Source: Solirubrobacterales bacterium
GTDB lineage: Bacteria; Actinomycetota; Thermoleophilia; Solirubrobacterales; Solirubrobacteraceae
DNA: 58,412 bases
Assembly (NCBI GenBank): GCA_027449125.1
Contig: DAIDME010000012.1
Span: 1-58,412 of the forward strand
Direction: 5' to 3'
The notes beneath the pieces were generated by a model. That model worked only from the letters and a program-made list of their open reading frames with translations, searched no databases and was not told the origin of the DNA. Each line of letters opens with the position of its first letter. Position 1 is the first letter of the stretch. Position numbers and translations under genes: made by a program. Below, piece after piece: positions 21,258 through 58,412 of this stretch.

Positions 21258-22280
21258 ATGGAGCTGACGCTGCCGGAGAACCTGGTGGCCTATGCCAAGC
21301 CGCGCGGGCGCACGGCGTGGCTCGAGGCGTTGCCGGAGTACGTCGCCGACGCGCGCGTCGGGCTCGGCCTGGACTGGATCGGGGAGCCGTTCCAGCCGGG
21401 CGGGATGACCGCCTGGGTGGCGCCCGTGCGCAGCGCCACCCACGGCTACGCGGTGCTGAAGCTCGCCTGCCGCCACGAGGAGGCCGAGGATGAGGCCGCC
21501 GGGCTCGAGTGCTGGGCTGGCAGCGGCGCCGTGGCGCTGCTGCACGCCGAACAGGTCGACGAGCGCACCGTACTCCTGCTGCTGGAGCGCCTGGTCCCTG
21601 GTGAGTGGCTGCTCCACGAGCCGCCGGCGCGCCAGGATGAGGTGATCGCGGGGCTGCTCACGCGGCTCTGGATCGAGCCACCCGCGCAGCCGTCGTTCCG
21701 GTCGCTCACGACTCTTTGCGACTTCTGGGCAGAGCGCTGCGAGCGCTGGGCGCAGCGCCTGGGGCAAGAGCAGGACGCCGGACGCGCGCCGGGCGGGCCG
21801 GCCGATCCCGGCCTGATCCGCGCCGGCATCGAGCTCTTCAGATCACTGCCACGCGAGCCGGCCGAGCAGCGTCTGCTGTGCACCGACCTGCACGCCGAGA
21901 ACGTCCTCTCCGCACGTCGCGAGCCGTGGCTGATGGTCGACCCCAAGCCCTACGTGGGCGACCCGAGCTTCGACCTGCTGCAGCACATCCTCAATGGCGC
22001 CGCCCGTTTCGGCCGCGAGCCGCGGGCGCTGTGTCGGCGGATGGCGGCGCTGACCGGCCAGGACCCGCGTCGGGTCGAGCTCTGGCTCTTTGCCCGCTGT
22101 GTCGCGGGCGCGCCGCACTGGCCGGAGCTGCTCGAGGTGGCCGCAGCGGTGGCGCCCGCTCAGCGCCGCTCGCCTACCGGTGTCGGCTCGATCGCCTCGG
22201 CCAGCAGCGTCGCCACGTCCGCCACCCGCAGGCCGGCGCCCGTTGACTGCACGCCGTCGTCGAGCATCACCGTGCAGTAG
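21258..22280 (+). CDS. Aminoglycoside/hydroxyurea phosphotransferase-family kinase
   Basis: The 340-aa protein matches the APH(6)/hydroxyurea kinase pattern: MTAWVAPVRSATHGYAVLKL as nucleotide-binding strands, a catalytic loop LLCTDLHAENVLSA (HxDxxxxN-like, Asp near residue 212) and the metal-binding MVDPKPYVGDPSFDLLQHIL. It would phosphorylate a small molecule; resistance should not be assumed from the family alone. The last 120 bases overlap antisense the end of the Fe-S oxidoreductase gene, and the C-terminal tail (SIASASSVATSATRRPAPVD) is low complexity, so its natural stop may have been lost by run-on. Confidence 0.85.
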   Translation: MELTLPENLVAYAKPRGRTAWLEALPEYVADARVGLGLDWIGEPFQPGGMTAWVAPVRSATHGYAVLKLACRHEEAEDEAAGLECWAGSGAVALLHAEQVDERTVLLLLERLVPGEWLLHEPPARQDEVIAGLLTRLWIEPPAQPSFRSLTTLCDFWAERCERWAQRLGQEQDAGRAPGGPADPGLIRAGIELFRSLPREPAEQRLLCTDLHAENVLSARREPWLMVDPKPYVGDPSFDLLQHILNGAARFGREPRALCRRMAALTGQDPRRVELWLFARCVAGAPHWPELLEVAAAVAPAQRRSPTGVGSIASASSVATSATRRPAPVDCTPSSSITVQ

Positions 22281-23977
22281 GGGCAGGCGACCGCCAGCGT
22301 GCCGGCGCCGGTCGCGGCGGCCTCGCGCACGCGCTCTGAGTTGATCGGGCTGGCGCGCTCCTCCATCCACATGTGCGCGCCGCCGGCGCCGCAGCAGAAG
22401 GTCTCTCGGCCCGATCGCGCCATCGGCAGCGCGGTGCCGACCGCGCCGACCAGCGTCCGCGGCGCCTCGAGCACGTCGTTGTGGCGCGCCAGGTAGCAGG
22501 AGTCGTGGTAGGTCACCATCAGCTGCTCGTCGCGCACAGGCAGCAGGCGTCCCTCGGCGACCAGGCGCGCCAGGAGCTCTGAGTGGTGCACGACCTCGTA
22601 GTCGCCGCCGAAGTCGGGGTACTCGTTGGCCAGCGTGTTGAAGCAGTGCGGGCAGTTGGCGATGATCTTGCGCACCCCCGCGCCGTTCAGCGTCTCGATG
22701 TTCTGCTCGGCCAGGGCCTGAAAGACGTATTCGTTACCCATGCGCCGGGCCGGGTCGCCGGTGCAGGACTCGCGCGGGCCGAGGATCGCGAAGTCGACCC
22801 CGGCGGCGCTGAGCAGCCTGGCGGTGGCCTGCGCGCTGATGCGGGCGCGCTCGTCAAAGGAGGAGGCGCAGCCGACCCAGTAGAGGTACTCGGGCGCGGG
22901 CTCCCCGGGCTCGAGCACACGCACGTCGAGGCCCTCGGCCCAGTCGGCGCGCTGGGATTGCTGGCGCCCCCAGGGGTTGCCGGCGCGCTCGACGTCGCGC
23001 AGCATCGGCTCGGCCTCCGCCGGGAAGCGCGACTCCACCATCACGAGGTGGCGGCGCAGGTCGACGATGTGGTCGACGTGCTCGATCGAGACGGGGCACG
23101 CCTGGATGCAGGCGCCGCAGGTGACGCAGTCCCAGACCGACTCCTCGGGTACCGCGCCCGGCACCAGCGCGGCCTCGCGGGCGCCATCCGAGCTGTCGAA
23201 GAGCTGGTCGCGCAGCCCCATGATCACGAGTTTGGGCGAGAGCAGCTTGCCGGTCTGGTTGGCCGGGCAGGCGTCCTGGCAGCGGCCACATTCGGTGCAG
23301 GAGAAGGCGTCCAGGACCTGCTTCCAGGTGAGGTCGGCGGCGCTGCCGGCGCCGAAGCGCAGGTCCTCCTCGCGCTCACCCTCGCCGGGCTCGAAGCGCA
23401 GCGGCTCGAGGCGACCGCGCCGCGCCGTGCGGCCGAACCAGACGTTGATCGCGGCGGTGGCGATGTGCAGGTGCTTCGTGTACGGCAGGTAGGCGAGGAA
23501 GGCGAGGATCGTGCCGACGTGCACCCAGACGAACACGCGCTCCAGCACACGCGCGGTCTGGCCGTGGTCGAAGAGGCGCGAGAGCAGGCGCGAGACCGGC
23601 GACCACGCCGCCGGCCACTCGTTGAGCCCCAGGGCGATCCGGGCTGCGTGCCAGCAGAGCAGCGAGATCACGATCGTCGCGATCATCAGGAGAATCAGGT
23701 CGGCCTCACCGCTGTGGCTGCCCTCGAAGCGCTTGGGTCGCACGACCTTGCGCACGTAGAACGCCGAGGCCACGCCCAGCAGCACCAGCACGCAGAAGGC
23801 GTCGACCATCAGCGCGTACCAGCCCTGCGCCCCCAGCCACGGGAGCGTCTGGTGCCGATCGACGATCCCGATCATCGCGATCAGGATCGTCGGCGCCAGG
23901 ACCAGGAAGCCCCAGAAGACGAAGGCGTGCATCAGCCCCGGCCAGAAGCGCTCAAGCAGCTTGCGCTGGCCGAGCAC
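22160..23977 (-). CDS. Membrane-bound Fe-S oxidoreductase (DgcB/HdrD-like), ETF partner
   Basis: The 605-aa frame has several N-terminal membrane segments (AFVFWGFLVLAPTILIAMIG; ALMVDAFCVLVLLGVASAFY; ILLMIATIVISLLCWHAARI), two [4Fe-4S] motifs (CTECGRCQDACP near residue 225 and CVTCGACIQACP near 280) and two CCG domains (including CCGAGGAHMWMEERA) of heterodisulfide-reductase type. In dimethylglycine catabolism such proteins (DgcB) are thought to pass electrons from ETF to quinone. It follows EtfA on the same strand. The frame stays open to about 24145 with an N-terminus like YEALALAAALAASG, but no ATG/GTG/TTG lies in that extension above the GTG at 23977, so the true start is unresolved. Confidence 0.88.
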   Translation of the reverse strand: MLGQRKLLERFWPGLMHAFVFWGFLVLAPTILIAMIGIVDRHQTLPWLGAQGWYALMVDAFCVLVLLGVASAFYVRKVVRPKRFEGSHSGEADLILLMIATIVISLLCWHAARIALGLNEWPAAWSPVSRLLSRLFDHGQTARVLERVFVWVHVGTILAFLAYLPYTKHLHIATAAINVWFGRTARRGRLEPLRFEPGEGEREEDLRFGAGSAADLTWKQVLDAFSCTECGRCQDACPANQTGKLLSPKLVIMGLRDQLFDSSDGAREAALVPGAVPEESVWDCVTCGACIQACPVSIEHVDHIVDLRRHLVMVESRFPAEAEPMLRDVERAGNPWGRQQSQRADWAEGLDVRVLEPGEPAPEYLYWVGCASSFDERARISAQATARLLSAAGVDFAILGPRESCTGDPARRMGNEYVFQALAEQNIETLNGAGVRKIIANCPHCFNTLANEYPDFGGDYEVVHHSELLARLVAEGRLLPVRDEQLMVTYHDSCYLARHNDVLEAPRTLVGAVGTALPMARSGRETFCCGAGGAHMWMEERASPINSERVREAAATGAGTLAVACPYCTVMLDDGVQSTGAGLRVADVATLLAEAIEPTPVGERR

Positions 23978-24135: not shown

Positions 24136-25014
24136 CTATGCGCCCCTCACCTTCCGGATCTCCGCGGAGATCGCCGGGAGCACCGCGTGCACGTCGCCGA
24201 TCACGCCGTAATCGGCGTGGGCGAAGATCGATGCCTCGCCGTCGGAGTTGATCGCGAGCAGCTTCTTCGCGCCCTTGCAGCCGGCCATGTGCTGGGTGGC
24301 GCCGCTGATTCCGCAGGCGATGTAGATCTCCGGCGCGACCTTGGTCCCGGTCTGGCCGACCTGATCGGTGTGCGGCCGCCAGCCGGCGGAGGTCACCGCG
24401 CGCGAGCAGCCGACGGCGCCGCCGAGCAGCCCGGCGAGCTCCTCGACCACCGCGAAGCCCTCGGCCGAGCCGACGCCGCGGCCCCCGGAGACCACGACGC
24501 TCGCCTCCTCCAGCGTGACGCCGCCGCTGCTCGCGCCGACCCGCTCGGTCGGCGCGAGCGCCAGAGCGTGGTGGGAGGCCGGCACTACCTCGGGCGTGAC
24601 GCCGGCCGGCGCGGCGCCGACGGCGTGCGGCGCGACCGTGATGAGCAGCGTGCCGCCGCGCAAGAGCGCCTGCTCGAGCAGGCTGCCGCCCCAGCGCACG
24701 CGCGTCACCGTGGGCGGGTCGCCGGGTGTGAAGGCGGTGGTGTTGGCCGACAGCGGCTCGTCGAGGATCGCGGCCGCGTGGGCCATAACCTCGTTGCCGC
24801 GCTCGGTTCCGGGCGCGATCACGGCCCGGGGCGAGCGGGCGGTGACGAGGTCTGCGACCGTCTGGCCCCAGGAGGCCGGGGCGTAGGGCCCGTCGATCGT
24901 GAAGGCGGTGGGCTCCGCGTCCGCGCCGGTCGCCTGCCCTAGCGAGCGCGCGAAGGCGAGCGCCTGCAGCGAGAGCTCGTCGCCGGCATCCCGCATCAGC
25001 ACGAGCACGCTCAT
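24136..25014 (-). CDS. etfA: Electron transfer flavoprotein alpha subunit
   Basis: The 292-aa protein carries the FAD-binding ETF alpha C-terminal domain: VVSGGRGVGS, then VGQTGTKVAPEIYIACGISG and ATQHMAGCKGAKKLLAINSD, the signature of the family, and ends GVIGDVHAVLPAISAEIRKV. The N-terminal domain is the nucleotide-binding-like fold (VLVLMRDAGDELSLQALAFA). With EtfB it would accept electrons from the dimethylglycine dehydrogenase-like flavoprotein upstream. Its start lies directly beside the EtfB stop. Confidence 0.95.
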   Translation of the reverse strand: MSVLVLMRDAGDELSLQALAFARSLGQATGADAEPTAFTIDGPYAPASWGQTVADLVTARSPRAVIAPGTERGNEVMAHAAAILDEPLSANTTAFTPGDPPTVTRVRWGGSLLEQALLRGGTLLITVAPHAVGAAPAGVTPEVVPASHHALALAPTERVGASSGGVTLEEASVVVSGGRGVGSAEGFAVVEELAGLLGGAVGCSRAVTSAGWRPHTDQVGQTGTKVAPEIYIACGISGATQHMAGCKGAKKLLAINSDGEASIFAHADYGVIGDVHAVLPAISAEIRKVRGA

Positions 25015-25770
25015 CTAGAGCACCCCCAGCTCGGCCAGGACCTCGACCACCGCGGGTGCGGCCTCGGGCCCCCGGCCGAGGATCTTCACCTGCTTGCCGG
25101 AGTCGGGCGGCAGCTCAAGCCTGGTCATCTCCAGTCGGGCGGCCGGGCGCTCCGGGCTCGACGCCTCGAGTGGCTTGCGCTTGGCGCGCAGCCGGCCCGG
25201 CACCGACGGGTAGCGCGGCAGGTTGATGCCCTCCTTGACCGCGACCACGGACGGCAGCGGCGCGTCGTAGACGTCGCGGCCACCGGGGACCTCCTGCTCG
25301 CAGCGGGCACGCCCGCCGGCGATCGTGATCGCCTTCACGCCGGTCACGCACGGCAGGCCGAGCGCGTGCGCCACGCGGACCGCCACCTGGTAGTTGCCGG
25401 CGTCGGCGGACTCGTTGCCGAACAGGATCAGGTCGGGCGGCTGCGCGTCTGCGCGGATCGCCGTGACGATCGCGGCCGCGGTGGCCTGCGGGTCCCACTC
25501 CTCACCGTCGGTGAGCAGGTGCAGCGCCCGGTCGGCGCCGATCGCCATCATGTCGCGCAGCTGCTCCTCGGACTCAGACGGACCGAGCGTCAGCACTGTC
25601 ACCGAGCCGCCCTCACGCTCGACGATCTGCACCGCCTCCTCGACCGCGCACTCCTCGTGCGGGCTGACGGTGAAGCCGAGGTGCCGGGTGGAGATCGCGC
25701 GCTGGTCGTCGGTCAGCGTGATCCGCCCGCCGGTCATAGGCACGCGCTTGACACATGCGTACACATGCAT
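25015..25770 (-). CDS. etfB: Electron transfer flavoprotein beta subunit
   Basis: The 251-aa protein begins MHVYACVKRVPMTGGRITLT and has the ETF beta pattern: FTVSPHEECAVEEAVQIVER, LGPSESEEQLRDMMAIGADR and PDLILFGNESADAGNYQVAV, with a central GLPCVTGVKAITI. It binds AMP or FAD and docks with EtfA. The start lies 6 bases after the dehydrogenase stop, so the four genes from 28305 to 22160 form one operon. Confidence 0.95.
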   Translation of the reverse strand: MHVYACVKRVPMTGGRITLTDDQRAISTRHLGFTVSPHEECAVEEAVQIVEREGGSVTVLTLGPSESEEQLRDMMAIGADRALHLLTDGEEWDPQATAAAIVTAIRADAQPPDLILFGNESADAGNYQVAVRVAHALGLPCVTGVKAITIAGGRARCEQEVPGGRDVYDAPLPSVVAVKEGINLPRYPSVPGRLRAKRKPLEASSPERPAARLEMTRLELPPDSGKQVKILGRGPEAAPAVVEVLAELGVL

Positions 25771-25776
25771 GCGCGG

Positions 25777-28305
25777 CTAGCTCCGGATGCGGCTGTTGTA
25801 GGGGTCGAAGAGCGCGGTGGCGTCGATGCTCTCCACGGTCACCGGGTAGCGCTCGCCCATGTACTGGACGAGCAGGTGCTCGCCGAGCCTGGCGTGCTCC
25901 GGCGGCAGGTAGCTCATCAGGATGTACTTGCCGAGCGACGGCGCCGAGCCGGCGCTCGTCACGTAGGAGCGCCGGCCCTTGCGGTCGGTGATCGGGCTGC
26001 CGTCGGGCGTGAGGATCGGCTCCTTGCCGAGCATGTAGCGCTTGACGCCGCCCGCGGAGGCGTGGTCGTCGACGGTGAGCGTGCACATCAGCGCCGCGGG
26101 CTGCTCCTCGCGGTGGGCGATGTGCGCCTGCCTGCCGATGAAGTCCTGCTCCTTCACGGAGCCCCAGGCCATCCCGGCCTCGACCACGTTGTACTCCCCG
26201 TCGAGCTCGGCGCCGTAGGCTCGGTAGCCCTTCTCCAGGCGGCCGGTGGTGCCGTAGACGCCGCTGCCGGCGGCGATCAGGCCGTGCTCCCGGCCGGCCT
26301 CGAACAGCAGATCCCAGAGCCGCTGGCCCTGCTCCATCGGCACGTACAGCTCCCAGCCGAGGTCACCGACGTAGGAGATACGCGAGGCGATCACCTCCGT
26401 CGGGCCAACCTCCAGCGCGCGCCAGTTGGCGAACGGGAAGCCCTCGTGCGAGACCTCGCCGCGGGCGACGCTCGCGAGGATGTCGCGCGCGCGCGGACCC
26501 CAGAGCCCGAGCGTGGTGATCGCGCTGGTCTGGTCGTGCACCTGCGCGGAGCCGTCCTCGGGCAGGTGGTCCACAAACCACTTGAGGTCCGACATCCCGT
26601 AGGCGCCGCCGGTCACGACCCGGAAGACGTCGTGGGCCATGCGCATGATCGTCAGGTCCTGCTTGAAGGTGCCGCTCGGGGTCAGCAGCGGCGTGTAGAC
26701 CACGCGGCCGACGGGCACGTCCATCTGGCGCATCGCCAGGCGCTGCACCACGCCGAGCGCGCCCGGGCCGGTCACGTCGAAGATCGCAAACGCGGTCAGG
26801 TCGACGACGGCCGCGCGGTCGCGCATCGCCAGGTGTTCGGCGTTGATGATCGGCGACCACCAGCGCGACTCCCATTCGGACTCGCGGCGGGTGACGCGGT
26901 CGCCGTACTCGTCCAGGAGGCCCGCGTTTGACTGATACCAGGCGGGGCGCTCCCAGCCGGCGGCCTCGTAGAAGACGGCGCCGAGCGCGCGCTCGCGCTC
27001 GTAGTAGGGCGAGACGCGCACGCCGCGGTCGGTCTCCCACTGCTCGCTGGGGTGGACGATCCCGTACATCTTGTTGAAGCCCTCCCCGGCGCGCGCAAAG
27101 ACGTGCGTGCGGGTCTTCATCGACGGGTAGGCGCGCGCGATGTTTGACTCGAAGACGTCGATCTCCGACTCGCCGTGGACCATCAGCTCGGCGACCGTCT
27201 TGCCGGCCCCTGGGCCCTCCTTGATCCAGATCGCCGCCGCCGACCAGAGGCCCTTGACCTCGGGCGTCTCGCCGAGCAGGGGCAGACCGTCGTAGGTCAC
27301 CGACAGCAGGCCGTTGATCGCGTACTTGACGCCCACGGACTCGTCGCCGACGATCTCCGGCATCAGCTCGAGCGCGATCTCCATCTGCGGGTCGAAGTCG
27401 GCTTGAGTGAAGGGCAGCTCGGTCGGCGATAGCGCCGATGCCTCGATCGACGGGATCTCCTCGGCCTCCATCATGATCGGGCGGTGGGCGTAGGAGCCGA
27501 TCTCGAGCCCCGTCCCCTCCTGGCGCTCGTACATGTTGGTGTCGACGTCGCGCACGATCGGGAACTCGATCATGCCCTTGGCGTTTGCGAAGCGCGGCAC
27601 GGGGCCGATGTCGATCATCTGGTGGACCGAGGGCGCGATCGGGATCGCGGCGCCGGCCATGCGCGCGAGTGCCGGGCTCCAGCAGCCGGTGGCGATCACC
27701 ACGCGCTCGGCCTCGATGTCGCCGCGCGTGGTGTGCACCCGGCGGATGCGCCCGTGCTCCACGTCGAAGCCTGTGACCTCTGTGTTGGCGGAGACCGTGA
27801 GCCCGGCCGCCTGGGCGCGCTCGCGCATGATCGTCGCCGCGCGCAGCGAGTCCACGACGCCCGCGCCGGGCGTGTAGAAGCCGCCGAGGATGAGCTGCTC
27901 GTTGATGAACGGCACGAGCTCCTTGATCTCCTGCGGGGTGATGATGGACACCGGCTCGATCCCCCAGGAGATCGCGGAGGAGACGCGGCGCTGGAGCTCC
28001 TGCATGCGCTCGGGGGTGCGCGCGACCTCGATCCCGCCGCTCTGGATGAAGACGTCGAGCTCCTTGTACTGGCGCAGGCTCTCGAGCGTGAGCTGCGTCA
28101 TCTCCTTGGAGTGGTCCACGGGGAAGATGAAGTTCGAGGCGTGGCCGGTGGAGCCGCCGGGGTTGGGCAGCGGCCCCTTGTCGATCAGGGTGATGTCGTG
28201 CTCGCCCAGGCGGGTGAGGTGGTAGGCGAGGCTGTTGCCGACGATCCCGGCGCCGATGATGACGACGCGCTGGGAGGCGGGCAGGGGCGTGCTAGGGCTG
28301 CTCAT
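25777..28305 (-). CDS. Dimethylglycine/sarcosine dehydrogenase-like flavoprotein with folate-binding GcvT domain
   Basis: The 842-aa protein has a DAO-type FAD domain (RVVIIGAGIVGNSLAYHL near residues 13-30; GSTGHASNF with His55 as a likely covalent FAD site), an FAO_M linker near 390-450, and a GcvT/aminomethyltransferase region from about 480 (DRAAVVDLTAFAIFDVTGPG; RISYVGDLGWELYVPMEQG; GCV_T_C near 740-835). This is the architecture of dimethylglycine dehydrogenase and oxidase: oxidative N-demethylation with transfer of the methylene group to THF. ETF and Fe-S genes follow at once, so it is probably an ETF-linked dehydrogenase and not an oxidase. Dimethylglycine versus sarcosine cannot be told from sequence alone. 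Confidence 0.92.
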   Translation of the reverse strand: MSSPSTPLPASQRVVIIGAGIVGNSLAYHLTRLGEHDITLIDKGPLPNPGGSTGHASNFIFPVDHSKEMTQLTLESLRQYKELDVFIQSGGIEVARTPERMQELQRRVSSAISWGIEPVSIITPQEIKELVPFINEQLILGGFYTPGAGVVDSLRAATIMRERAQAAGLTVSANTEVTGFDVEHGRIRRVHTTRGDIEAERVVIATGCWSPALARMAGAAIPIAPSVHQMIDIGPVPRFANAKGMIEFPIVRDVDTNMYERQEGTGLEIGSYAHRPIMMEAEEIPSIEASALSPTELPFTQADFDPQMEIALELMPEIVGDESVGVKYAINGLLSVTYDGLPLLGETPEVKGLWSAAAIWIKEGPGAGKTVAELMVHGESEIDVFESNIARAYPSMKTRTHVFARAGEGFNKMYGIVHPSEQWETDRGVRVSPYYERERALGAVFYEAAGWERPAWYQSNAGLLDEYGDRVTRRESEWESRWWSPIINAEHLAMRDRAAVVDLTAFAIFDVTGPGALGVVQRLAMRQMDVPVGRVVYTPLLTPSGTFKQDLTIMRMAHDVFRVVTGGAYGMSDLKWFVDHLPEDGSAQVHDQTSAITTLGLWGPRARDILASVARGEVSHEGFPFANWRALEVGPTEVIASRISYVGDLGWELYVPMEQGQRLWDLLFEAGREHGLIAAGSGVYGTTGRLEKGYRAYGAELDGEYNVVEAGMAWGSVKEQDFIGRQAHIAHREEQPAALMCTLTVDDHASAGGVKRYMLGKEPILTPDGSPITDRKGRRSYVTSAGSAPSLGKYILMSYLPPEHARLGEHLLVQYMGERYPVTVESIDATALFDPYNSRIRS

Positions 28306-28320: not shown

Positions 28321-28377
28321 GAGCCGGGAGTGCGGGCGTTGGGAGCGTGCATGAGTACCCGCCTAATCTCGGATGAT

Positions 28378-29638: not shown

Positions 29639-30940
29639 TCAGGCGGCCAGCGTGCCCGGCGCGACCCTGCTGCAGCCGCTCGTGTAGAGCATCGCCGAGA
29701 TGTCGGCCGTGGTGAACGCGCGGGCGCCGTGCGGGGAGAGGCCCGACTGCGGCAGGGTGCTCGATTCGATCCCCTGACCGAGCGCGATCAGGCGGCGGAT
29801 CGCGAGTCCCAGGCCGGCCGGGTGCCGTGCGAGAGCGCCGGTGTAGAGCGTGGCGCCGAGGCTCGTGAGCACGACGGCGCGCCCGCCCGGCAGCGTGCGC
29901 GTCCGGCGCCTGATCGAGATCAGCTGGCCGCTCGAGCCGCGCCGTGGCGCGGCGGCGGCACCGATTGCGACCGTCACGGCCCCGGGTTGCGCCGCGGTGG
30001 TGACCTCGAGGCCCCGGGCGCGGGCGGCGGCAACCACCGCGGAGACCCGCCGGGCGACCGCCGGCGGCAGGGACCGCGACGGCACGAAGCGGACCGCCTG
30101 GCAGGCCCGGCCCCACGGGCGCCCGAGCGCGGCCGGCAGCTCGCCGGCGCCGAGGAAGGCGAGGTAGCCGGGGGCCTTGGGGATCGTCATCGCGGCCAGG
30201 CGCCGCGCGAGCGCGGCGAGCCCGGTGACGGCGACGGGACGTGACGGCGGTCTGACCGTCAGGCGCTCACCCCAGGCGGAGGTGAGGATCGTGCCTGAGG
30301 CGACCACGCGCCCGCCCTTGCGCAGCTGGGTCGAGACCCGCACGGGCAGCGGCTCGGTGCCGCGTGTCACATACAGCGTCTGGGTGCCTGAGACCCCCTT
30401 GGGAGTGCCCGGCATGGCGCCCTCGATCGCTGTCAGCCGGCGCCCGGAGATGTTCACGTCGGTCCGCACGCGCAGCGGGCCGAGGGGGACGAGCTCAGCC
30501 AGGGCCGAGGTGGCGGTCACGTCGACGGCCACGCTGCCGTAACCGGCGTCGGCGTGCGTGAAGCTCACCCAGCGCCCGCCGACCGCCGTGGCGACCTCCG
30601 CGGGGAAGCCGAAGTAGCGGGCCAGCGCCGCGTAGTTGCCCGACAGGTAGGCACCGCCCGCCGCGACGATCACCTGCGCGCGCACGCCCTTGGAGGTGGT
30701 GATCAGCTGCCTGCCCGAGCTCTGGCCGATGTCGGCTGAGAACATGACGCGCGTGCCGCTCTCGAGCTGCGAGATCTGCTCGTGGAAGGTTCCGCGCGCC
30801 CGCGCGTCGGCCAGGGTGCGGGCGAGCAGCGCGGTGGCGGCGCTCGGGCTCGCCGCCCGGGCGCCGCCGGCCGCAAGCAGCATCGCGGCGAAGGCGCCGA
30901 TGACGGCGCGGCGAAGCGCGGAACGGCCCCCGCTCAGCAC
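29639..30940 (-). CDS. Secreted hypothetical protein
   Basis: The 433-aa protein has a signal peptide (LRRAVIGAFAAMLLAAGGAR, cleavage near ARAAS). Its first 230 residues alternate beta-strands (GTFHEQISQLESGTRVMFSA; VSGTQTLYVTRGTEPLPVRV), recalling LolA/LppX-like lipid-binding folds by texture only. A second part carries FVPSRSLPPAVARRVSAVVA and a conserved-looking C-terminus (GLSPHGARAFTTADISAMLY). No firm family match. It overlaps the serine ammonia-lyase stop by 7 bases and so is probably transcribed after it. Confidence 0.7.
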   Translation of the reverse strand: MLSGGRSALRRAVIGAFAAMLLAAGGARAASPSAATALLARTLADARARGTFHEQISQLESGTRVMFSADIGQSSGRQLITTSKGVRAQVIVAAGGAYLSGNYAALARYFGFPAEVATAVGGRWVSFTHADAGYGSVAVDVTATSALAELVPLGPLRVRTDVNISGRRLTAIEGAMPGTPKGVSGTQTLYVTRGTEPLPVRVSTQLRKGGRVVASGTILTSAWGERLTVRPPSRPVAVTGLAALARRLAAMTIPKAPGYLAFLGAGELPAALGRPWGRACQAVRFVPSRSLPPAVARRVSAVVAAARARGLEVTTAAQPGAVTVAIGAAAAPRRGSSGQLISIRRRTRTLPGGRAVVLTSLGATLYTGALARHPAGLGLAIRRLIALGQGIESSTLPQSGLSPHGARAFTTADISAMLYTSGCSRVAPGTLAA

Positions 30941-46385: not shown

Positions 46386-47065
46386 AGCACACTCCTGATC
46401 TCGCGTTCGAAGGTGTCAACGTGGTCGGCTGCGATCTGGGCGGCGTGCTCGGGCTCGCGGGCGGCGATCGCCTCGAGCATCGTCTCGTGCTCGTGCACGC
46501 GCTGGAAGAGGTGCGGCAGCCGGTCTATCACGAGGTACCAGATGCGCAGCGAGAGGTTGAAGTAGCGCTGCAGCGTCTCGGCCAGGAAGGGGTTGTCGCA
46601 GGCCCGGTAGATGAAGCGGTGGATGCGGGTGTCGAGCGCCATCAGCGCCGCCATGTCCTCGCCGCCGCGGCTCGCGCGCAGCTCTGCGATCAGGGCGTCG
46701 AGCTCCGCGCGGGTTGCCGCCGTCAGGCGTACGGCGGCCAGCGCGGCGGCCCGCGCCTCGAGCACCATGCGCACCTCGGTGATGTGGGCGAGGTCCTTGA
46801 TGTTGATCTCGGCGGCAAAGGTGCCGCGGCGCGGGAAGACGGTGACCAGGTTCTCGAGCGCCAGGCGCTTGATCGCCTCGCGGATCGGGGTGCGGCCCAT
46901 GGCCAGCTCCTGCCCCAGCCGCTCCTCGTCGATCGGCTCACCCGGCCGGATGCGCAGCGTCACCAGGCGGTCGCGCAGCTCCTCGTAGGCCTGCTCGGCG
47001 AGCAGCGCGGGCGGGTTCGGCGCGTGCGTGGCACGCTGGTCGCCGAGCGCTGATATATCACTCAT
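46382..47065 (-). CDS. GntR-family regulator with FCD domain
   Basis: The 227-aa protein has an N-terminal winged helix ([60 protein letters not shown]) and a C-terminal helical FCD ligand domain with the expected Asp/His metal ligands ([40 protein letters not shown]). FCD regulators respond to carboxylic or amine metabolites. Its start codon lies within the palindrome TGATATATCA (47051-47060), so it likely represses itself and the choline-type oxidoreductase. Confidence 0.92.
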
Positions 47066-52293: not shown

Positions 52294-53736
52294 CTAGTCC
52301 CCGAGCTCGATGCGCCGGCGGTCCACGAACTCGCGCAGCTCCTCGCGGACGGCGTCGTCGAGCGGCGGCGGCTCGTAGGCCGCGAGCTTCTCCCGCCAGA
52401 TCTCCGACGCCCGCGCGGTCGCGTCCTTCGAGCCACGGCGGGTCCAGCGGTCGAAGTTGTCGGTGCTGGAGAGGAGCGGGCGGTAGAAGCAGTCGCGGAA
52501 GCGCTCGAGGGTGTGGGCGGCGCCGAGGAAGTGCCCACCCGGGCCGACCTCGGTGTGCGCGTCGAAGGCCAGCGCCGCGTCGTCAAAGACCACCGGCGTG
52601 AACTCGTGGCGCAGCTCCCGCAAAAGCTCGATATCGACGATGAACTTCTCGTAGCAGGAGACCAGGCCACCCTCGAGCCAGCCGACCGAGTGCATCACGA
52701 AGTTGGTGCCCGCCAGGAAGGTCGGCAGCAGCGTCATCAGCGACTCGTACGCGGCCTGGGCGTCGACCACGGTCGAGGAGTTCAGCCCGCCGCCGCCGCG
52801 CCACGGCAGGTTGAAGTGCCGCGCGATCTGGCCGGTGCAGAGCACGCCGATCCCCGACTCGGGTGTGCCGAACGACGGCGAGCCCGACTGCATGTCGGTG
52901 TTTGACAGGAACGAGCCGAAGACCACCGGCGCGCCCGGGCGGATCGTCTGCGCCAGCGCGATCCCGGCGAGCGCCTCGGCCATCTGCTGGGTGAGCGTCG
53001 CCGGCAGCGAGACCGGTGACATCGCCCCCATCAGAAGAAACGGGGTGATCACGACCGCCTGGCCGGCCTTGACGTACTCCACCATGGCCGAGAGCATGCG
53101 GTCGTCGTAGCGCAGGGGCGAGTTGACGTTGATCAGGCTGATCGAGACGGGCGCGCGCTCGATCGCCTCGCGCCCGCCGAACAGGATCTCCCCCATGCGG
53201 ACCGTGTCGGCGGCGTTGGGGCCGCTGGTCACCGAGCCCATGTACGGCTTGTCGGTCAGCGTCTGCAGCGCGTAGACCATGTCCAGGTGGCGTGAGTCCA
53301 GCGGACGGTCCTCGGGCTCGCAGATCGTGCCGCCGGGAGAGTCGAGCTCGTCGAAGGCCTGCGAGAGCTTCACGAGGTTCTCGAAGTCGGCCATCTTGGC
53401 GTCGCGGCGGACGTCGCCCTCGCGTATGAACGGCGCGCCGTAGACGGGCGCGAAGGCCATGTTGTCGCCGCCGATGGTCAGCGTGTTGGCGGGGTTGCGG
53501 GCCTGCAGCTCGAACTGGCTCGGCGCCTTGGCCACCTGCTCGAGGATGAACTCGGGGTCGAAGCGGACGCGGTTCTCATCCTCCACGATCTGGCCGGCGG
53601 CGCGCAGCGCCTCGACCGCCTCGGGGAGCAGGAACTCGATTCCGATCTCGGAGACGATCCGGCGCCAGCCGCGGTCGAGCACGGCCATCGCCTCCTCGCT
53701 CAGGATCTCGTAACGGGGCATTGAGTTGACGAACAT
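52294..53736 (-). CDS. MttB-family corrinoid methyltransferase without pyrrolysine (MtgB-like)
   Basis: The 480-aa protein has the TIM-barrel pattern of trimethylamine methyltransferase (MttB) homologues: MPRYEILSEEAMAVLDRGWR, LTIGGDNMAFAPVYGAPFI, VVITPFLLMGAMSPVSLPAT and GGGLNSSTVVDAQAAYESLM. The frame has no in-frame amber, so it is a non-pyrrolysine member. Characterised ones (MtgB, MtpB, MtcB, MtyB) demethylate glycine betaine, proline betaine, carnitine or other quaternary amines, passing the methyl to a corrinoid protein. With dimethylglycine genes nearby, glycine betaine is the best guess. It is divergent from the IclR gene with only 24 bases between. Confidence 0.92.
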   Translation of the reverse strand: MFVNSMPRYEILSEEAMAVLDRGWRRIVSEIGIEFLLPEAVEALRAAGQIVEDENRVRFDPEFILEQVAKAPSQFELQARNPANTLTIGGDNMAFAPVYGAPFIREGDVRRDAKMADFENLVKLSQAFDELDSPGGTICEPEDRPLDSRHLDMVYALQTLTDKPYMGSVTSGPNAADTVRMGEILFGGREAIERAPVSISLINVNSPLRYDDRMLSAMVEYVKAGQAVVITPFLLMGAMSPVSLPATLTQQMAEALAGIALAQTIRPGAPVVFGSFLSNTDMQSGSPSFGTPESGIGVLCTGQIARHFNLPWRGGGGLNSSTVVDAQAAYESLMTLLPTFLAGTNFVMHSVGWLEGGLVSCYEKFIVDIELLRELRHEFTPVVFDDAALAFDAHTEVGPGGHFLGAAHTLERFRDCFYRPLLSSTDNFDRWTRRGSKDATARASEIWREKLAAYEPPPLDDAVREELREFVDRRRIELGD

Positions 53737-53760
53737 GGTTGACGTCGTATCCTACACACC

Positions 53761-54540
53761 ATGGAACTAGAGTTTCAAGGAGCGACGGCGATCGACCGCG
53801 GCGCCGACCTGCTGGTGCGCGTGCTCGAGTCCGAGGAGCCGGTCGCGGTGACCGAGCTGGCGAGCGCCGCCGGCCTGCCCAAGAGCACCGCCTCGAGGCT
53901 GCTCTCGGCGCTCGAGCGTCGCGGCCTGGTCGCGCAGGAGGGTGAGCGCGGGCGCCTGCGCCCCGGGCCGGCGATCCTGCGGGTCGCAGAGCGCGGCATG
54001 CTCGAGCGCAACCTGGTGGAGATCGCGCGCCCCGTGCTGGCGGCGCTGTCCGAGCGCACCGGCGAGACGATCAACCTCGGCGTCCCCGGCGCGGGCGGCG
54101 TCGAGCACCTGCTGCAGTCAGACGGCCGCCACTTCCTCGGCAGCGGCCAGTGGGTGGGCCGCACGGTCGACTTCCACGCGAGCGCCAACGGCAAGGTGTT
54201 CCTCGCGTATGGGCGCGCGCTGGCGCCCGCTGGCGCAAGCGCGCTAACTCGGTACGCCCCCGGGACCGTCACCGACCCCGCCGCGCTGCGCGCCGAGGTC
54301 GAGCACGTGCGCCGCGACGGCTACGCGGTGGCGGTTGACGAGCTGGAGGTCGGCCTGGCGGCGGTGGCCGCGCCGGTGCGCGGCGTCAGCGGCGAGGTCG
54401 TGGCGGCGCTCAGCATCACCGGCCCGACCGTGCGCATGACGCCCGAGCGGACCCGCGAGCTGGCGCAGGTGTTGGTCGAGGAGTCCGGTCGCCTGAGTGC
54501 CCGGCTCGGATACATCGAAGGAGGAGCAAGCGCGGCATGA
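53761..54540 (+). CDS. IclR-family transcriptional regulator
   Basis: The 259-aa protein has the IclR winged helix (GADLLVRVLESEEPVAVTEL, ASAAGLPKSTASRLLSALER) and the ligand domain (FDARTGE-like LSERTGETINLGVPGAGG; GRTVDFHASANGKVFLAYGR; GYAVAVDELEVGLAAVAAPV). It likely senses a substrate or methyl-donor-related metabolite and controls the divergent mttB-like gene and its own operon. The next gene starts in its stop (ATGA). Confidence 0.93.
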   Translation: MELEFQGATAIDRGADLLVRVLESEEPVAVTELASAAGLPKSTASRLLSALERRGLVAQEGERGRLRPGPAILRVAERGMLERNLVEIARPVLAALSERTGETINLGVPGAGGVEHLLQSDGRHFLGSGQWVGRTVDFHASANGKVFLAYGRALAPAGASALTRYAPGTVTDPAALRAEVEHVRRDGYAVAVDELEVGLAAVAAPVRGVSGEVVAALSITGPTVRMTPERTRELAQVLVEESGRLSARLGYIEGGASAA

Positions 54541-55202
54541 CCGACGAAGAGATTCTGCAACTGCTGTACGAGGAGACGCTCACCGGCAACGCGCCGGCCG
54601 TGGCCGGCGGTGTCAACGACGGCCTGGCGCAGGGCATGGCGCCCGAGTCGATGCTGTTCGACGCGCTGATCCCGTCGCTGGAGGAGGTCGGCGCCCGCTT
54701 CGAGCGCGGCGATTACTTCGTGCCCGAGATGCTGATCGCGGCGCGGGCGATGCAGGGCGCGCTCGACATCCTGCGCCCGCTGTTGGCCGACAACGAGTCC
54801 GCCCAGATCGGGACCTTCCTGATGGGCACCGTCAAGGGCGACGTGCACGACATCGGCAAGAACCTCTGCAACATCATGCTCGAGGGCGCCGGCTTCAACG
54901 TGATCGACCTGGGCGTCAACGTGGCGCCGGAGAAGTTCATCGAGCAGATCGAGGAGCACAGCCCGGACGTGGTCGGCTTCTCGGCGTTCCTCACGACGAC
55001 GATGCCGATGTTCAAGGCCAACATCAACGCGCTCGAGAAGGCGGGCCTGCGGGACAAGGTGATCGTGATGGTCGGCGGCGCGCCCGTGACGCAGGAGTAC
55101 GCGGACGCTGTGGGCGCCGACGGCTACGCGGCCGATGCCTCGACGGCGGTCCGGAAGGCCAAGGAGCTGATCGAGCGCCGGCGCGAGAGGGTGCTGGTCT
55201 AG
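54537..55202 (+). CDS. Corrinoid (B12-binding) protein of a methyltransferase system
   Basis: The 221-aa protein has an N-terminal helical cap (LLYEETLTGNAPAVAGGVND) and a Rossmann-like B12 domain with DVHDIGKN: His104 is the lower cobalt ligand. Downstream are FNVIDLGVNVAPEKFIEQIE, VVGFSAFLTTTMPMFKANIN and VIVMVGGAPVTQEYADAVGA. It carries the methyl group between the MttB-like and the methyl-THF enzymes. It is overlapped by 4 bases with the IclR gene and abuts the next gene. Confidence 0.95.
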   Translation: MTDEEILQLLYEETLTGNAPAVAGGVNDGLAQGMAPESMLFDALIPSLEEVGARFERGDYFVPEMLIAARAMQGALDILRPLLADNESAQIGTFLMGTVKGDVHDIGKNLCNIMLEGAGFNVIDLGVNVAPEKFIEQIEEHSPDVVGFSAFLTTTMPMFKANINALEKAGLRDKVIVMVGGAPVTQEYADAVGADGYAADASTAVRKAKELIERRRERVLV

Positions 55203-56069
55203 ATGGACACCGTCCTGCGCTCACGCTCGAAGACGGTGGTGATCGGCTCCGACAAGCCGTTCTGCATCATCGGCGAGCGGATCAACCCGACCGGCCGCAA
55301 GGCCTTTGCCCAGGAGCTGCGCGACGGCGACCTGTCCACGGCGCGCGAGGACGCGCTGGCCCAGGTCGCCGCGGGGGCCGACATGCTCGACGTCAACGCC
55401 GGCATCCCACTGGTCGACGAGGCCGAGCTGCTGGTCAAGCTGATCCGGCTCGTGCAGGACACGGTCGACGCGCCGATCTGCATCGACTCCTCGGTTGTGG
55501 AGGCGCTGGAGGCGGGGCTCTCCGCCTACGAGGGCCGCGCCCTGGTGAACTCGGTCACCGCCGAGGACGACCGCCTGGAGGCGGTGCTGCCGCTGGTCGC
55601 CGCCCACGGCGCCGCCGTGATCGGGCTCACGAACGACGAGACCGGCATCCCGATGACGGCTGACGAACGGCTGCGCCACGCGCGCAAGATCGTCTCGGCC
55701 GCGGGGGACTACGGGATCGACGCCTGCGACGTGGTGATCGACCCGCTGGCGATGCCGGTCGGCGCCGACACCGAAGCGGTCGCCAACACGCTCACCGCGA
55801 TGCGGATGATCCGTGACGAGCTGGGGGTGAACATGTGCGTGGGCGCCTCGAACGTCTCGTTCGGGCTGCCGGACCGGCTCACTCTGAACGCGGCCTTCCT
55901 GCCGATGGCGATGGCCGCCGGGCTGACCTCGGCGATCATGTCCACCGCTGAGGTGGTGGTGCGCAGCGCGCGCGCCGCCGACCTGCTGCTCGGCCACGAC
56001 GAGTGGGGGGCGAGCTGGATCGCCGCGCACCGGGCGCGCCAGGCTGTGGTGGAGGCGACCGCTTCGTGA
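55203..56069 (+). CDS. Methyl-THF:corrinoid methyltransferase (pterin-binding; MtvA/MtgA-like)
   Basis: The 288-aa protein has the pterin-binding pattern: IIGERINPTGRKAFAQELRD, ADMLDVNAGIPLVDEAELLV, PICIDSSVVEALEAGL, ALVNSVTAEDDRLEAVLPLV and VVIDPLAMPVGADTEAVANT. Relatives move the methyl group from a methylated corrinoid protein to THF (MtgA, MtvA) or the reverse. No start gap with the corrinoid gene, and the next gene starts in its stop (GTGA). This routes betaine methyl groups into one-carbon metabolism. Confidence 0.93.
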   Translation: MDTVLRSRSKTVVIGSDKPFCIIGERINPTGRKAFAQELRDGDLSTAREDALAQVAAGADMLDVNAGIPLVDEAELLVKLIRLVQDTVDAPICIDSSVVEALEAGLSAYEGRALVNSVTAEDDRLEAVLPLVAAHGAAVIGLTNDETGIPMTADERLRHARKIVSAAGDYGIDACDVVIDPLAMPVGADTEAVANTLTAMRMIRDELGVNMCVGASNVSFGLPDRLTLNAAFLPMAMAAGLTSAIMSTAEVVVRSARAADLLLGHDEWGASWIAAHRARQAVVEATAS

Positions 56070-57979
56070 GCGCCTCCGCGCAGCGGGCAGCACGGCTGCG
56101 GCGGTCGGCACGCGAGGATCGGGACGGGGCGAGCGAGCCCGACGACGGCACCGGGCGCGTGCGCCTGCGCTTCCTGCCCGAGGGCGCCGAGGTGCGTGTG
56201 CCGAGCGGCACGCCGGTCTTTGACGCCGCCACCTGGAACGGGATCGCGATCGACTCCACCTGCGGTGGCTACGGCACCTGCAAGAAGTGCAGGGTGCGCG
56301 TGGTCTCCGGCGAGCTGCCGGTGGGGCCGATCGACCCGCGTGCGTTCAATCCGGCGGAGCTGGCGGAGGGGTGGCGCCTGGCCTGCCGGGCCCTCGCGCG
56401 GGAGGATCTGGTGGTGGAGGTGCCGCCGTTGCAGACGCGGCCCAAGGCCGCCCTGGCCGGGGTCGGGCGCCACGTCATCCTGCGCCCGTCGGTACAGAAG
56501 CGCCACCTGGTGATGGCCGAGCCGACGCTCGAGGACCAGCGTCCGGACCTGCGTCGCGTGCTGGACGCGATCGACGACCTGGAGCCCACCGCGTCCGTGG
56601 GGCTGCTGCGCGAGCTCGGCGGTCTGCTGCGCTCGAGCGGCTTCGACGTGACCGCGGTGGTGGTGGACGAGGAGCTCATCGCGGTCGAGCCGGGCGACAC
56701 GACCGCGCGGCGCTTCGCGATCGCCTTTGACCTGGGGACCACGACGGTCGTGGCGACGCTGCTTGACCTGGACTCCGGCCAGCCGCTGGCGGTGCGTTCG
56801 ATGCTGAACCGCCAGCAGCCGTTCGGCGCCGACGTGATCACGCGCGTCTCGGCGACGATGATGGACCCGGAGGCACTCGGACGGTTGCAGGAGCACGCGC
56901 ACAGCACGCTCGCGACGCTCTGCGAGGAGGTCTGCGAGGAGGCGGAGGTGGAGCCGGTGGAGGTCTACGAGATCACCGTCTGCGGCAACCAGACGATGAT
57001 GCAGCTGGCGCTCGGGATCGACCCGGAGCCGCTCTCGATGGCGCCCTTCGTGGTCGCCGCCAACGCCTTCCCGCAGGCTCGGGCGGCTGACTTCGGCGTC
57101 CCGGTGCACCCACGCGCACACGCCTACGTCTTCCCGTCGCTGGGGGCGTACGTCGGCGGTGACATCGTCGCCGGGATGCTCGCGACGGGCCTGACGCGCG
57201 ACCAGCGGCTGCGGCTGTTCATCGACGTGGGCACCAACTCGGAGATCGCCCTGGGCTCAAACGAGCGGGTGCTGGCGACCGCCGCACCGGCCGGACCCGC
57301 CTTTGAGGCGGCGCAGATCCGCTGCGGCATGCGCGCGGCGGAGGGCGCGATCGAGGGCGTGAAGATCAAGGACGACTCGCTGACGCTCGAGGTGATCGGT
57401 GACGTCGAGCCGGTCGGGCTGTGCGGCTCTGGCGTGGTGGACGTGGTGGCCGAGCTCGTGCACAACGGGCTGCTCGACCACTCCGGTCGCTTTGCCGAGG
57501 CCGATGCTGTGGCCGCCTCCGGCCGGCCAGGGCTGGCTGAGCGCTTTGCGATGATCGGCAAGGAGCGGGTCTTCATCCTGCACCCGCGCGGCCTCGACCC
57601 CGAGGAGTCGGTCTTCATCTCCCAGCGTGACGTGCGCGAGCTGCAGTTCGCCAAGGCCTCGATCGCGACCGGCTGGCAGCTCCTTTTGCGCGACCTGGGG
57701 GTCGAGGCCACAGACATCCAGCAGGTGCTTTTGGCGGGCAGCTTCGGCGCCTACCTGACACCGCTATCGGCGGTGCGGATCGGCCTGGTGCCCAAGCTCG
57801 CGCTGCCGCGCATCATCTCGGCCGGCAACGTCGCCGGGGAGGGCGCGAAGATCGCCGCGCTCTCGGCCCGCGAGCGGGCCGAGGCGGACGCGATCGTGCA
57901 CGAGGTCAAGTACGTCGAGCTCTCCGGGCGCACCGACTTCAACGACCTGTTCATCGACCAGCTGTCGTTCCCGGGATGA
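56066..57979 (+). CDS. RamA-like corrinoid reductive activator (2Fe-2S plus ASKHA, DUF4445)
   Basis: The 637-aa protein from GTG 56066 has an N-terminal [2Fe-2S] domain with Cys66, Cys72, Cys75 and Cys107 (DSTCGGYGTCKKCRV; LACRAL), then an ATP-binding ASKHA region (FAIAFDLGTTTVVATLLDLD; FIDVGTNSEIALGSNERVLA; VLLAGSFGAYLTPLSAVRI). This layout matches the ATP-dependent enzymes that reduce inactive Co(II) corrinoid to the active Co(I) form. The start chosen overlaps the upstream stop by 4 bases; the longer 56003 frame adds an antisense-like extension. Such repair is needed wherever oxygen oxidises the cobalt centre. Confidence 0.93.
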   Translation: MSASAQRAARLRRSAREDRDGASEPDDGTGRVRLRFLPEGAEVRVPSGTPVFDAATWNGIAIDSTCGGYGTCKKCRVRVVSGELPVGPIDPRAFNPAELAEGWRLACRALAREDLVVEVPPLQTRPKAALAGVGRHVILRPSVQKRHLVMAEPTLEDQRPDLRRVLDAIDDLEPTASVGLLRELGGLLRSSGFDVTAVVVDEELIAVEPGDTTARRFAIAFDLGTTTVVATLLDLDSGQPLAVRSMLNRQQPFGADVITRVSATMMDPEALGRLQEHAHSTLATLCEEVCEEAEVEPVEVYEITVCGNQTMMQLALGIDPEPLSMAPFVVAANAFPQARAADFGVPVHPRAHAYVFPSLGAYVGGDIVAGMLATGLTRDQRLRLFIDVGTNSEIALGSNERVLATAAPAGPAFEAAQIRCGMRAAEGAIEGVKIKDDSLTLEVIGDVEPVGLCGSGVVDVVAELVHNGLLDHSGRFAEADAVAASGRPGLAERFAMIGKERVFILHPRGLDPEESVFISQRDVRELQFAKASIATGWQLLLRDLGVEATDIQQVLLAGSFGAYLTPLSAVRIGLVPKLALPRIISAGNVAGEGAKIAALSARERAEADAIVHEVKYVELSGRTDFNDLFIDQLSFPG

Positions 57980-58412
57980 GCCGGGTCGCGGTGATCGCCT
58001 GCGGGGCGCTCGCGCTCGACGTGCGCGCGATCACGCGTGCGCGCGGCTGGCCGGTCGAGATCTACCCGGTGCCGGCGCTCTTGAACAACCGTCCGGCGCA
58101 GATCCCGGACGCGGCGCAAGCCGAGCTCGAGCGGCTCGACGGCGAGTATGACCGCGTGCTGGTCGCCTACGGCGACTGCGGCACCCACGGCGCGCTCGAT
58201 CAGCTGCTCGCCTGCCACGAAGGGCTCGAGCGCCTTGACGGCGACAGCTGCTACGACCTGCTGGCGCGAGAGGAGGTGCGTGCGGCGCTCGCCGAGCAGC
58301 CCGGCACCTACCTGCTGACCGACTTTCTGGCACGCACCTTCGAGCACACGGTCGTGCGCGAGCTGGGGCTCGACCGCCACCCCGAGCTGCTCGGCGACTA
58401 CTTCGGCAACTA
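57976..58412 (+). CDS. DUF1638-family protein, runs off the window
   Basis: The frame starts at ATG 57976, overlapping the activator stop by 4 bases, and encodes MSRVAVIACGALALDVRAIT, AQAELERLDGEYDRVLVAYG, DCGTHGALDQLLACHEG and DSCYDLLAREEVRAALAEQP, FLARTFEHTVVREL. These match the DUF1638 pattern, with conserved Cys residues (GDCGTHG). The family is often found next to MttB-type methyltransferase genes, but I know of no assigned function. The 3' end lies outside the window. Confidence 0.85.
   Translation, partial: MSRVAVIACGALALDVRAITRARGWPVEIYPVPALLNNRPAQIPDAAQAELERLDGEYDRVLVAYGDCGTHGALDQLLACHEGLERLDGDSCYDLLAREEVRAALAEQPGTYLLTDFLARTFEHTVVRELGLDRHPELLGDYFGN

Follow-up and report, generated by a model that had tools for sequence, protein, structure and literature searches.

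A candidate choline and glycine betaine catabolic island with corrinoid and ETF-linked demethylation genes in a soil actinobacterium

Results

Here we report that a contig from a Conexibacter-like soil actinobacterium very probably carries, in its right half, a catabolic island leading from choline through glycine betaine to pyruvate. The window analysed is the whole of this contig (C12 of the assembly; Solirubrobacterales bacterium, DAIDME010000012.1; 58,412 bases). A preliminary description of the sequence had placed a corrinoid betaine demethylase set and an operon for a dimethylglycine dehydrogenase linked to an electron transfer flavoprotein (ETF) in this one window. Both are there, an HMM search of the window recovered every family named in that description at its expected place, and the complete Conexibacter sp. 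S30A1 chromosome keeps the gene order. Family-level gene identity and conserved clustering are direct observations.

The MttB homologue (52294..53736, minus strand) is the single copy found in the assembly and matches PF06253 with 621.7 bits over positions 25-500 of the 500-position profile, i.e. at full length. Its frame has no internal stop and it is therefore not a pyrrolysine enzyme, in line with the preliminary description; a pyrrolysine MttB is also ruled out by a score far below the cut-off of the pyrrolysine equivalog TIGR02369 (276 against 525 bits). The pyrrolysine of 7xcl aligns at about Leu318. The protein is 44.0% identical to the Desulfitobacterium hafniense MtgB chain 2qne; it scores 424 bits with MtgB chains and about 125 bits with pyrrolysine MttB, and of these two groups, which the comparison covered, the former is the nearer. 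Judged by sequence, it is a candidate glycine betaine:corrinoid methyltransferase (MtgB). Identity of just 44% to the verified MtgB counts against this role. It also counts against it that the MttB superfamily, which has widely diverged in substrate (PMC12478193), includes proline betaine, carnitine and gamma-butyrobetaine enzymes, MtpB, MtcB and MtyB being among its enzymes for other betaines.

A cognate corrinoid protein, tetrahydrofolate (THF) methyltransferase and activator are encoded beside the MttB homologue (54537-57979), an arrangement conserved in relatives. The run on the plus strand begins with an IclR regulator divergent from MttB (53761..54540; PF01614, PF09339). It continues with an MtgC-like corrinoid protein (54537..55202; PF02310, PF02607), whose top NCBIfam model, NF047996 MtgC, is matched below its cut-off (201 vs 370), and an MtgA/MtgD-like methylcorrinoid:THF methyltransferase (55203..56069; PF00809), with 322 bits against a PRK07535 cut-off of 259. 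Then follow a RACo-type ATP-dependent corrinoid activator with a 2Fe-2S domain (56003..57979, exact start uncertain; PF14574, PF17651, PF17650, PF00111) and a DUF1638 protein that is truncated where the contig ends (57976..58410; PF07796, 60 bits). The DUF1638 protein is about 199 aa long in S30A1, and three cysteines and a single histidine are invariant in its alignment; a confident AlphaFold2 model (pLDDT 94.7) gave no match in the PDB at E <= 0.001 with Foldseek, and so no convincing structural relative there.

The second module lies on the minus strand. A folate-dependent dimethylglycine, possibly also sarcosine, dehydrogenase (25777..28305) has the DAO, FAO_M, GCV_T and GCV_T_C domains, all above their Pfam cut-offs, and its nearest solved chain is dimethylglycine oxidase 1pj5 (534 bits), human DMGDH 5l46 scoring 311 bits. 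In an alignment read by eye, its residues match His69, His225, Tyr259 and Asp552 of 1pj5 within GGSTGHA, HQMID, TNMYERQ and FKQDLTI stretches; we take these to be the flavinylated histidine, the active-site histidine and tyrosine, and the folate-site aspartate. Next to it are EtfB (25015..25770; PF01012, 109 bits), EtfA (24136..25014; PF00766, 117 bits) and a membrane-type Fe-S oxidoreductase (22160..23977) recognized by PF02754 (two CCG domains), Fer4 families (4Fe-4S) and motifs, which stands beside EtfA in relatives. Because the dehydrogenase adjoins EtfBA and this oxidoreductase, ETF is its likely electron acceptor, and the oxidoreductase in turn likely serves as ETF:quinone electron acceptor. 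For the sarcosine step no separate enzyme can be named, since the genome has a single dimethylglycine-dehydrogenase-like gene at the 1e-60 limit.

Choline oxidation is represented by BetA (44688..46385, minus strand), a GMC-family choline dehydrogenase scoring 816.8 bits against the curated TIGR01810 cut-off of 732.1 (NCBIfam), which bears out the choline-type oxidoreductase described earlier. A GntR/FCD regulator (46382..47065, minus strand; PF07729, PF00392) overlaps betA by 4 bases. The aldehyde dehydrogenase (35853..37286, plus strand; PF00171, 479 bits) is a candidate betaine aldehyde dehydrogenase by gene context, as it adjoins the GMC gene in many relatives; it scores 342.4 bits against the BetB cut-off of 668.6 (TIGR01804) and passed no cut-off among the 25 listed of 44 matched NCBIfam families.

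Serine would be handled by an L-serine ammonia-lyase (30934..32298, minus strand; TIGR00720, 640.6 vs 345.1 bits). Its start is probably at 32298, where codon 121 in the longest frame is an ATG, and not at 32658; the gene therefore does not overlap that of an APC-type amino acid permease (32376..33998, minus strand; PF13520, 41 bits), a candidate importer with no NCBIfam match at 1e-20.

Conservation in relatives

The gene set recurs, whole or in part, in related genomes. In the fetched flanks of 58 related MttB genes, a corrinoid protein occurs in 37, the activator in 35, DUF1638 in 31 and MetF/MetV in 21, while choline-oxidation genes are present at 29 loci and dimethylglycine dehydrogenase/ETF/Fe-S genes at 11. 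These 11 belong to a set of 49 loci spanning 617.7 kb, where chance would give 0.15 at one copy per 4 Mb or 0.8 at five copies, figures whose strength is inflated by kinship of the loci; co-location of the modules is beyond chance. All three modules lie together within about 13-16 kb at three loci (L019, L036, L048). Counting against the proposed route, 24 of the 58 loci show no choline-oxidation or dimethylglycine genes in what was fetched: 15 of them, many short, have the corrinoid set, and 9 have neither module nor corrinoid set. The S30A1 locus is counted among the 15, its genes lying further off.

In a genome of the same genus (G122, contig C308), ALDH, PurU, GntR, MttB, IclR, MtC, MetV, MetF, MtA, activator, DUF1638, Fe-S protein and EtfA genes lie within 16 kb, the GMC gene there being just a distant one (33%). 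On the S30A1 chromosome the order is preserved between the Fe-S gene and DUF1638 and runs on into LigM-PurU-MetVF. Among 28 genomes of the genus, some of them fragmentary assemblies, 14 have MttB with a close dehydrogenase, 2 MttB only, 4 the dehydrogenase only and 8 neither (Fisher p 0.005, uncorrected for phylogeny). On an MttB tree of 53 rows, including 47 of the 58 loci (match over 440 residues), presence labels are scattered with 7 changes each, absences being uninformative owing to contig ends.

Farther afield, three Proteobacterial plasmid loci list no dimethylglycine dehydrogenase within 14 kb. At five 'palsa'-named MAG loci (L012, L026, L029, L032, L055), mttB is near an aldehyde dehydrogenase gene, with a close choline dehydrogenase gene in four; at the fifth, L012, it is near ETF/Fe-S genes.

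Oxygen use and methionine synthesis

An oxygenase route to betaine demethylation was sought through PF00848 (Ring_hydroxyl_A), the Rieske family of the oxygen-dependent demethylase GbcAB, and rejected, with no match in the 92% complete assembly, which also contains one COX1 aerobic oxidase. The MetH activation domain is part of an 880-aa protein that also has the pterin and B12 modules and scores 1194 against the TIGR02082 cut-off of 1011; with the homocysteine module that precedes it, it makes up a split MetH. A second stand-alone PF02574 gene (291 aa) is found on contig C76.

Discussion

The choline-to-pyruvate chain proposed in the preliminary description is well supported, because the clustering is conserved in the window's genus and other Actinomycetota, BetA is an equivalog match and no oxygenase-family match was found; the betaine aldehyde role rests on context, and the sarcosine step has no separate enzyme assigned to it. 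The mix of anaerobe and aerobe chemistry that it pointed out is no longer surprising. Corrinoid betaine demethylation was published in 2025 for the aerobe Ruegeria pomeroyi, and the genes are colocated in other Proteobacteria too; mtgC and mtgD mutants showed that growth on betaine needs the same kind of gene set, and MtgC/MtgD there take over the methionine synthase role of MetH (PMC12478193). The MtgBCD(E) system of R. pomeroyi and other Pseudomonadota shares with the window a pfam06253 MtgB, corrinoid MtgC, pterin MtgD, activator and DUF1638, as well as MetF-type methyl-THF oxidation, predicted dimethylglycine/sarcosine steps, serine ammonia-lyase and aerobic hosts (PMC12478193). In contrast, the window comes from soil Actinomycetota and places these genes in a single island alongside BetA and a dehydrogenase linked to ETF. 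Replacement of MetH as in Ruegeria is not needed here, given a separate methionine synthase, and the split MetH rules it out; this ruling covers replacement, not an additional dual use.

Other known systems match the island in part. MtgBAC of D. hafniense (PDB 2qne, 9yce) belongs to the same non-pyrrolysine MttB family and, according to PMC12478193, works with a corrinoid protein and a THF methyltransferase, but its host is an anaerobe. The pSymB locus of Sinorhizobium meliloti (4yyc protein; L096) has an MttB of 47% identity divergent from corrinoid, DUF1638, MetV, MetF, pterin methyltransferase and ASKHA genes, and differs in that its listed genes include no IclR and, within 14 kb, no dimethylglycine dehydrogenase, and in having bmt close by. 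Arthrobacter N,N-dimethylglycine oxidase (1pj5) and mammalian DMGDH (5l46, 4p9s) resemble the window dehydrogenase over the full length; 1pj5 is an oxidase, whereas the window enzyme adjoins EtfBA and the Fe-S oxidoreductase. Pseudomonas GbcAB-DgcAB takes betaine through dimethylglycine to glycine with ETF and a CCG Fe-S protein, as proposed for the window, but its first step is a Rieske oxygenase that releases formaldehyde, and the window's assembly has no PF00848 match. New here are the occurrence of the system in a soil actinobacterium, the close linkage with BetA and the ETF-linked dehydrogenase, and the separate methionine synthase. The open-licence literature yielded nothing on glycine betaine methyltransferase in Conexibacter, betaine demethylation in Solirubrobacter or Conexibacter sp. 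S30A1, and only PMC12478193 on MtgB and Actinomycetota.

Could the corrinoid set instead work on another quaternary amine (e.g., proline betaine, carnitine or another betaine), its neighbours forming a general methyl-compound island? The wide substrate divergence of the superfamily (PMC12478193) would allow it, actinobacterial homologues of 57-66% identity (L046, L047, L050-L053) lack a corrinoid set within the stretch fetched, and a LigM O-demethylase gene adjoins the set in S30A1, so that the island would handle other methyl donors too. Nevertheless, we consider this unlikely: the dehydrogenase gene directly follows MttB in Pseudonocardia thermophila (L028), the aldehyde dehydrogenase and betA genes come after MttB at many loci, and dimethylglycine is the expected product of glycine betaine, not of the other betaines named.

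Much less probable still is that the modules are independent, the corrinoid genes feeding methyl-THF to methionine synthesis or C1 metabolism while the dehydrogenase operon degrades imported sarcosine or dimethylglycine. They are separate transcription units 24 kb apart in the window and some members of the genus have just one, but tight clustering is conserved in several lineages and the assembly has its dedicated split MetH. Joining of unrelated genes in a composite contig is scarcely credible. Where contig C44 from this assembly overlaps the end of the window (56355-58412), nucleotide identity is only 86.7%, and the assembly may therefore be a mixture of related strains; C44 was rejected as a simple continuation, probably represents a related strain, and was used solely as support for the S30A1 order. 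That order, with two loci (L003, L004) collinear with parts of the region, rules out an artefact of gene order.

For the choline-to-pyruvate route, substrates, electron flow and regulation are those that we infer. BetA and the aldehyde dehydrogenase would convert choline to glycine betaine, the MttB homologue, acting as MtgB, would pass one methyl group to the corrinoid protein in its Co(I) state, from which the pterin methyltransferase would move it on to THF. The RACo-type activator would re-reduce inactive Co(II), with DUF1638 as a putative helper. The flavin/folate dehydrogenase would then remove the next methyl group(s) as methylene-THF, its electrons passing through EtfAB and the membrane Fe-S protein to the quinone pool. 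Glycine and methylene-THF would give serine, which serine ammonia-lyase would split to pyruvate and ammonia, and methyl-THF could be re-oxidised by a MetV-MetF reductase to leave as formate via PurU or FTHFS.

Conclusions

The island would extend aerobic corrinoid betaine demethylation from marine Proteobacteria to soil Actinomycetota, and names Conexibacter sp. S30A1 and Pseudonocardia thermophila as organisms for testing. As a tentative proposal, aerobic soil and permafrost Actinomycetota may possess a self-contained B12-dependent choline-to-pyruvate route that demethylates betaine without oxygen or free formaldehyde, in which MtgBCA would be purely catabolic because MetH is separate, and in which one methyl-THF sink (MetV-MetF, PurU) would be common to betaine and, in S30A1, lignin-type O-demethylation (LigM). 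The finding also bears on how corrinoid methyltransferase genes are read in metagenomes. A permafrost peat study takes such genes as anaerobic methylotrophy and describes methylated-amine demethylation genes expressed in Actinobacteria, which may or may not be of the kind seen in the window (PMC10805028). If the proposed route is true, anaerobic methylotrophy need not lie behind the MttB-type transcripts that Actinobacteria make in peat and permafrost.

Gene content of the window

Open reading frames were predicted from codon-position G+C, and the right half was profiled against Pfam, with ten proteins also compared with NCBIfam. All families listed in the preliminary description, which had proposed a choline-to-pyruvate route joining corrinoid betaine demethylation to an ETF-linked dimethylglycine dehydrogenase, were recovered. 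The strongest single name is that of the GMC protein, a choline dehydrogenase (BetA; it scores 816.8 bits with TIGR01810, whose cut-off is 732.1). Cut-offs are also exceeded by the serine ammonia-lyase (TIGR00720) and the pterin methyltransferase (PRK07535); the aldehyde dehydrogenase falls below the cut-off in all 25 families listed of 44 matched. The MttB homologue, the single PF06253 match in the assembly by profile search, scores far under the pyrrolysine equivalog cut-off, as expected of a non-pyrrolysine enzyme. An aminoglycoside/hydroxyurea phosphotransferase family protein (21258-22280) adjoins the Fe-S gene.

The dehydrogenase is a member of the dimethylglycine oxidase/dehydrogenase family; its highest-scoring relatives of solved structure are the dimethylglycine oxidase of Arthrobacter (534 bits) and human DMGDH (311 bits). 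It keeps residues matching the flavinylated histidine, the active-site histidine and tyrosine and the folate-site aspartate of the Arthrobacter enzyme. EtfBA lies directly downstream, and the Fe-S protein, which presumably resembles ETF:menaquinone oxidoreductases, has hydrophobic N-terminal stretches when read by eye; together these features suggest that electrons pass to ETF and the quinone pool.

In DUF1638, Cys8, Cys67, Cys91 and His36 are invariant across 28 sequences (alignment A1; Conexibacter sp. S30A1 copy at L042:5096-5689), and the cysteines are possible ligands of a metal or cluster. Its fold is confidently predicted, and no convincing PDB relative of that fold was found.

The left end carries a group II intron (element 1019-2868; RF02003 at 1019-1154 in Rfam) with its reverse transcriptase/maturase gene (1534-2868). 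The adjacent lower-G+C part (3589-15695) looks like an integrated mobile element, with a relaxase/helicase of TrwC type encoded at 3589-6633 and a gene of the phage integrase family at 14253-15695. Inside it, at 8477-8853, is a choline dehydrogenase fragment of 116 residues near the C-terminus, 88% identical in protein to the window's BetA; it may be what is left of another betA gene.

Conservation in related genomes

Sought in related genomes, the gene set was found with its order kept in the complete S30A1 chromosome, and clustered in several other loci. Window and S30A1 share the order Fe-S gene, EtfA, EtfB, dehydrogenase, lyase, permease, aldehyde dehydrogenase and betA, followed by MttB, corrinoid protein, pterin methyltransferase, activator and DUF1638. 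Beyond DUF1638, the S30A1 order goes on to LigM, PurU and a MetV-MetF fusion, and the whole run from the Fe-S gene spans about 63 kb. Between the betA group and MttB, some 22 kb of S30A1 contain hardly any match to the window's proteins and include an aldo/keto reductase gene in inverted orientation. A related MAG contig (L003) compresses DUF1638 to lyase into about 15 kb in unchanged order, and in loci L019, L036 and L048 all three kinds of gene (corrinoid, choline and dimethylglycine) fit into about 13-16 kb. In the same genus, about 16 kb of contig G122:C308 carries aldehyde dehydrogenase, PurU, MttB, corrinoid protein, MetV, MetF, pterin methyltransferase, activator, DUF1638, Fe-S protein and EtfA; its GMC gene is distant (33% only).

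MetV-MetF genes sit between the corrinoid protein and pterin methyltransferase genes in many relatives; in S30A1 and on contig C44 of the window's assembly they encode a fusion past DUF1638. A cyclodeaminase-family protein is added in 15 relatives' loci, and FTHFS in two. The S30A1 LigM (L042:3470-4873) is of the vanillate/3-O-methylgallate O-demethylase type (835 bits against a cut-off of 580) and, with PurU and MetVF, is convergent to the corrinoid operon; it may supply methyl-THF from a second source beside the betaine set.

Across 58 loci, with identity thresholds chosen gene by gene and counts confined to the fetched stretch, we found the corrinoid protein in 37, pterin methyltransferase in 32, activator in 35, DUF1638 in 31 and MetF or MetV in 21. 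Choline genes occur in 29 and dimethylglycine/ETF/Fe-S genes in 11 (both in six); 24 have neither within the fetched stretch. In the 617.7 kb covered by the 49 loci that have a corrinoid or choline set, chance predicts about 0.15 dimethylglycine loci at one copy per 4 Mb and 0.8 at five copies; Poisson figures based on this overstate the strength because the loci are related. The 11 are spread over several parts of the MttB tree in differing arrangements: the window's genus contributes four and another actinobacterial group five, and the remaining two are L015 and the Pseudonocardia thermophila locus (L028), in which the dehydrogenase comes immediately after MttB. The combination of corrinoid, choline and dimethylglycine genes is not due to chance.

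The assembly is 3.17 Mb and 92% complete, and the window is one entire 58,412-base contig. The nearest named relative of its MttB is from S30A1 (96% identity), other close relatives being mostly labelled Solirubrobacterales. The window's MttB is matched in four of 121 order genomes (E 1e-30, own genome counted), all in its own genus, one of 46 genera. Within that genus 16 of 28 genomes have MttB. A close dehydrogenase, taken as one of at least 67% identity and including fragments, accompanies it in 14; MttB occurs alone in two, the dehydrogenase alone in four and neither in eight (Fisher p 0.005, phylogeny not corrected). Actinobacterial MttB homologues at L046, L047 and L050-L053 lack a corrinoid set nearby, and some adjoin ABC transporter-like genes, as judged by eye; these are possibly enzymes for other methylated compounds.

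Relation to known systems and proposed route

According to Mausz et al. (2025, PMC12478193), aerobic Ruegeria pomeroyi requires MtgC and MtgD for growth on betaine and induces pfam06253 proteins, RamA, DUF1638, MetF2 and serine ammonia-lyase; in Proteobacteria, genes of this sort frequently lie together with those for the later demethylation steps. Actinomycetota are mentioned there once, as 5% of ocean mtgC reads. The window's MttB matched 141 plasmid records, of which three were inspected: on the Paracoccus and Sinorhizobium meliloti plasmids this corrinoid set recurs and is transcribed divergently from MttB, whereas on the Azoarcus plasmid MttB lies near betA-betB, FolD and ETF-quinone oxidoreductase, with the corrinoid set not among the genes listed nearby. 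Given the Ruegeria and proteobacterial findings and these plasmid loci, the window's gene set belongs to an already known kind of system.

One difference was tested. Mutation of mtgC or mtgD makes Ruegeria auxotrophic for methionine (PMC12478193), whereas the window's assembly has its own MetH, split on contig C33 (L097) into a homocysteine module and an 880-aa pterin/B12/activation protein. Its high-scoring PF02965 type occurs in five of 28 genus genomes; 16 of the other 21 PF02965-matched genomes have open frames of at least 1100 aa. Such coexistence is not new, since the same paper reports MtgBCD in 28 of 239 metH-bearing marine genomes. As to an aerobic setting, the assembly encodes haem-copper oxidase subunit I. 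Ring_hydroxyl_A had zero matches in this 92% complete assembly, which thus showed no candidate of the oxygenase family for demethylating betaine.

With substrates judged from gene context, the set most likely works as follows. BetA and the aldehyde dehydrogenase would convert choline to glycine betaine; the MttB homologue would pass a methyl group to the corrinoid protein, from which the pterin methyltransferase would transfer it to THF, the activator restoring Co(I). Dehydrogenase electrons would reach the quinone pool through ETF, methyl-THF would probably be re-oxidised by MetV-MetF, and glycine would be converted through serine to pyruvate.
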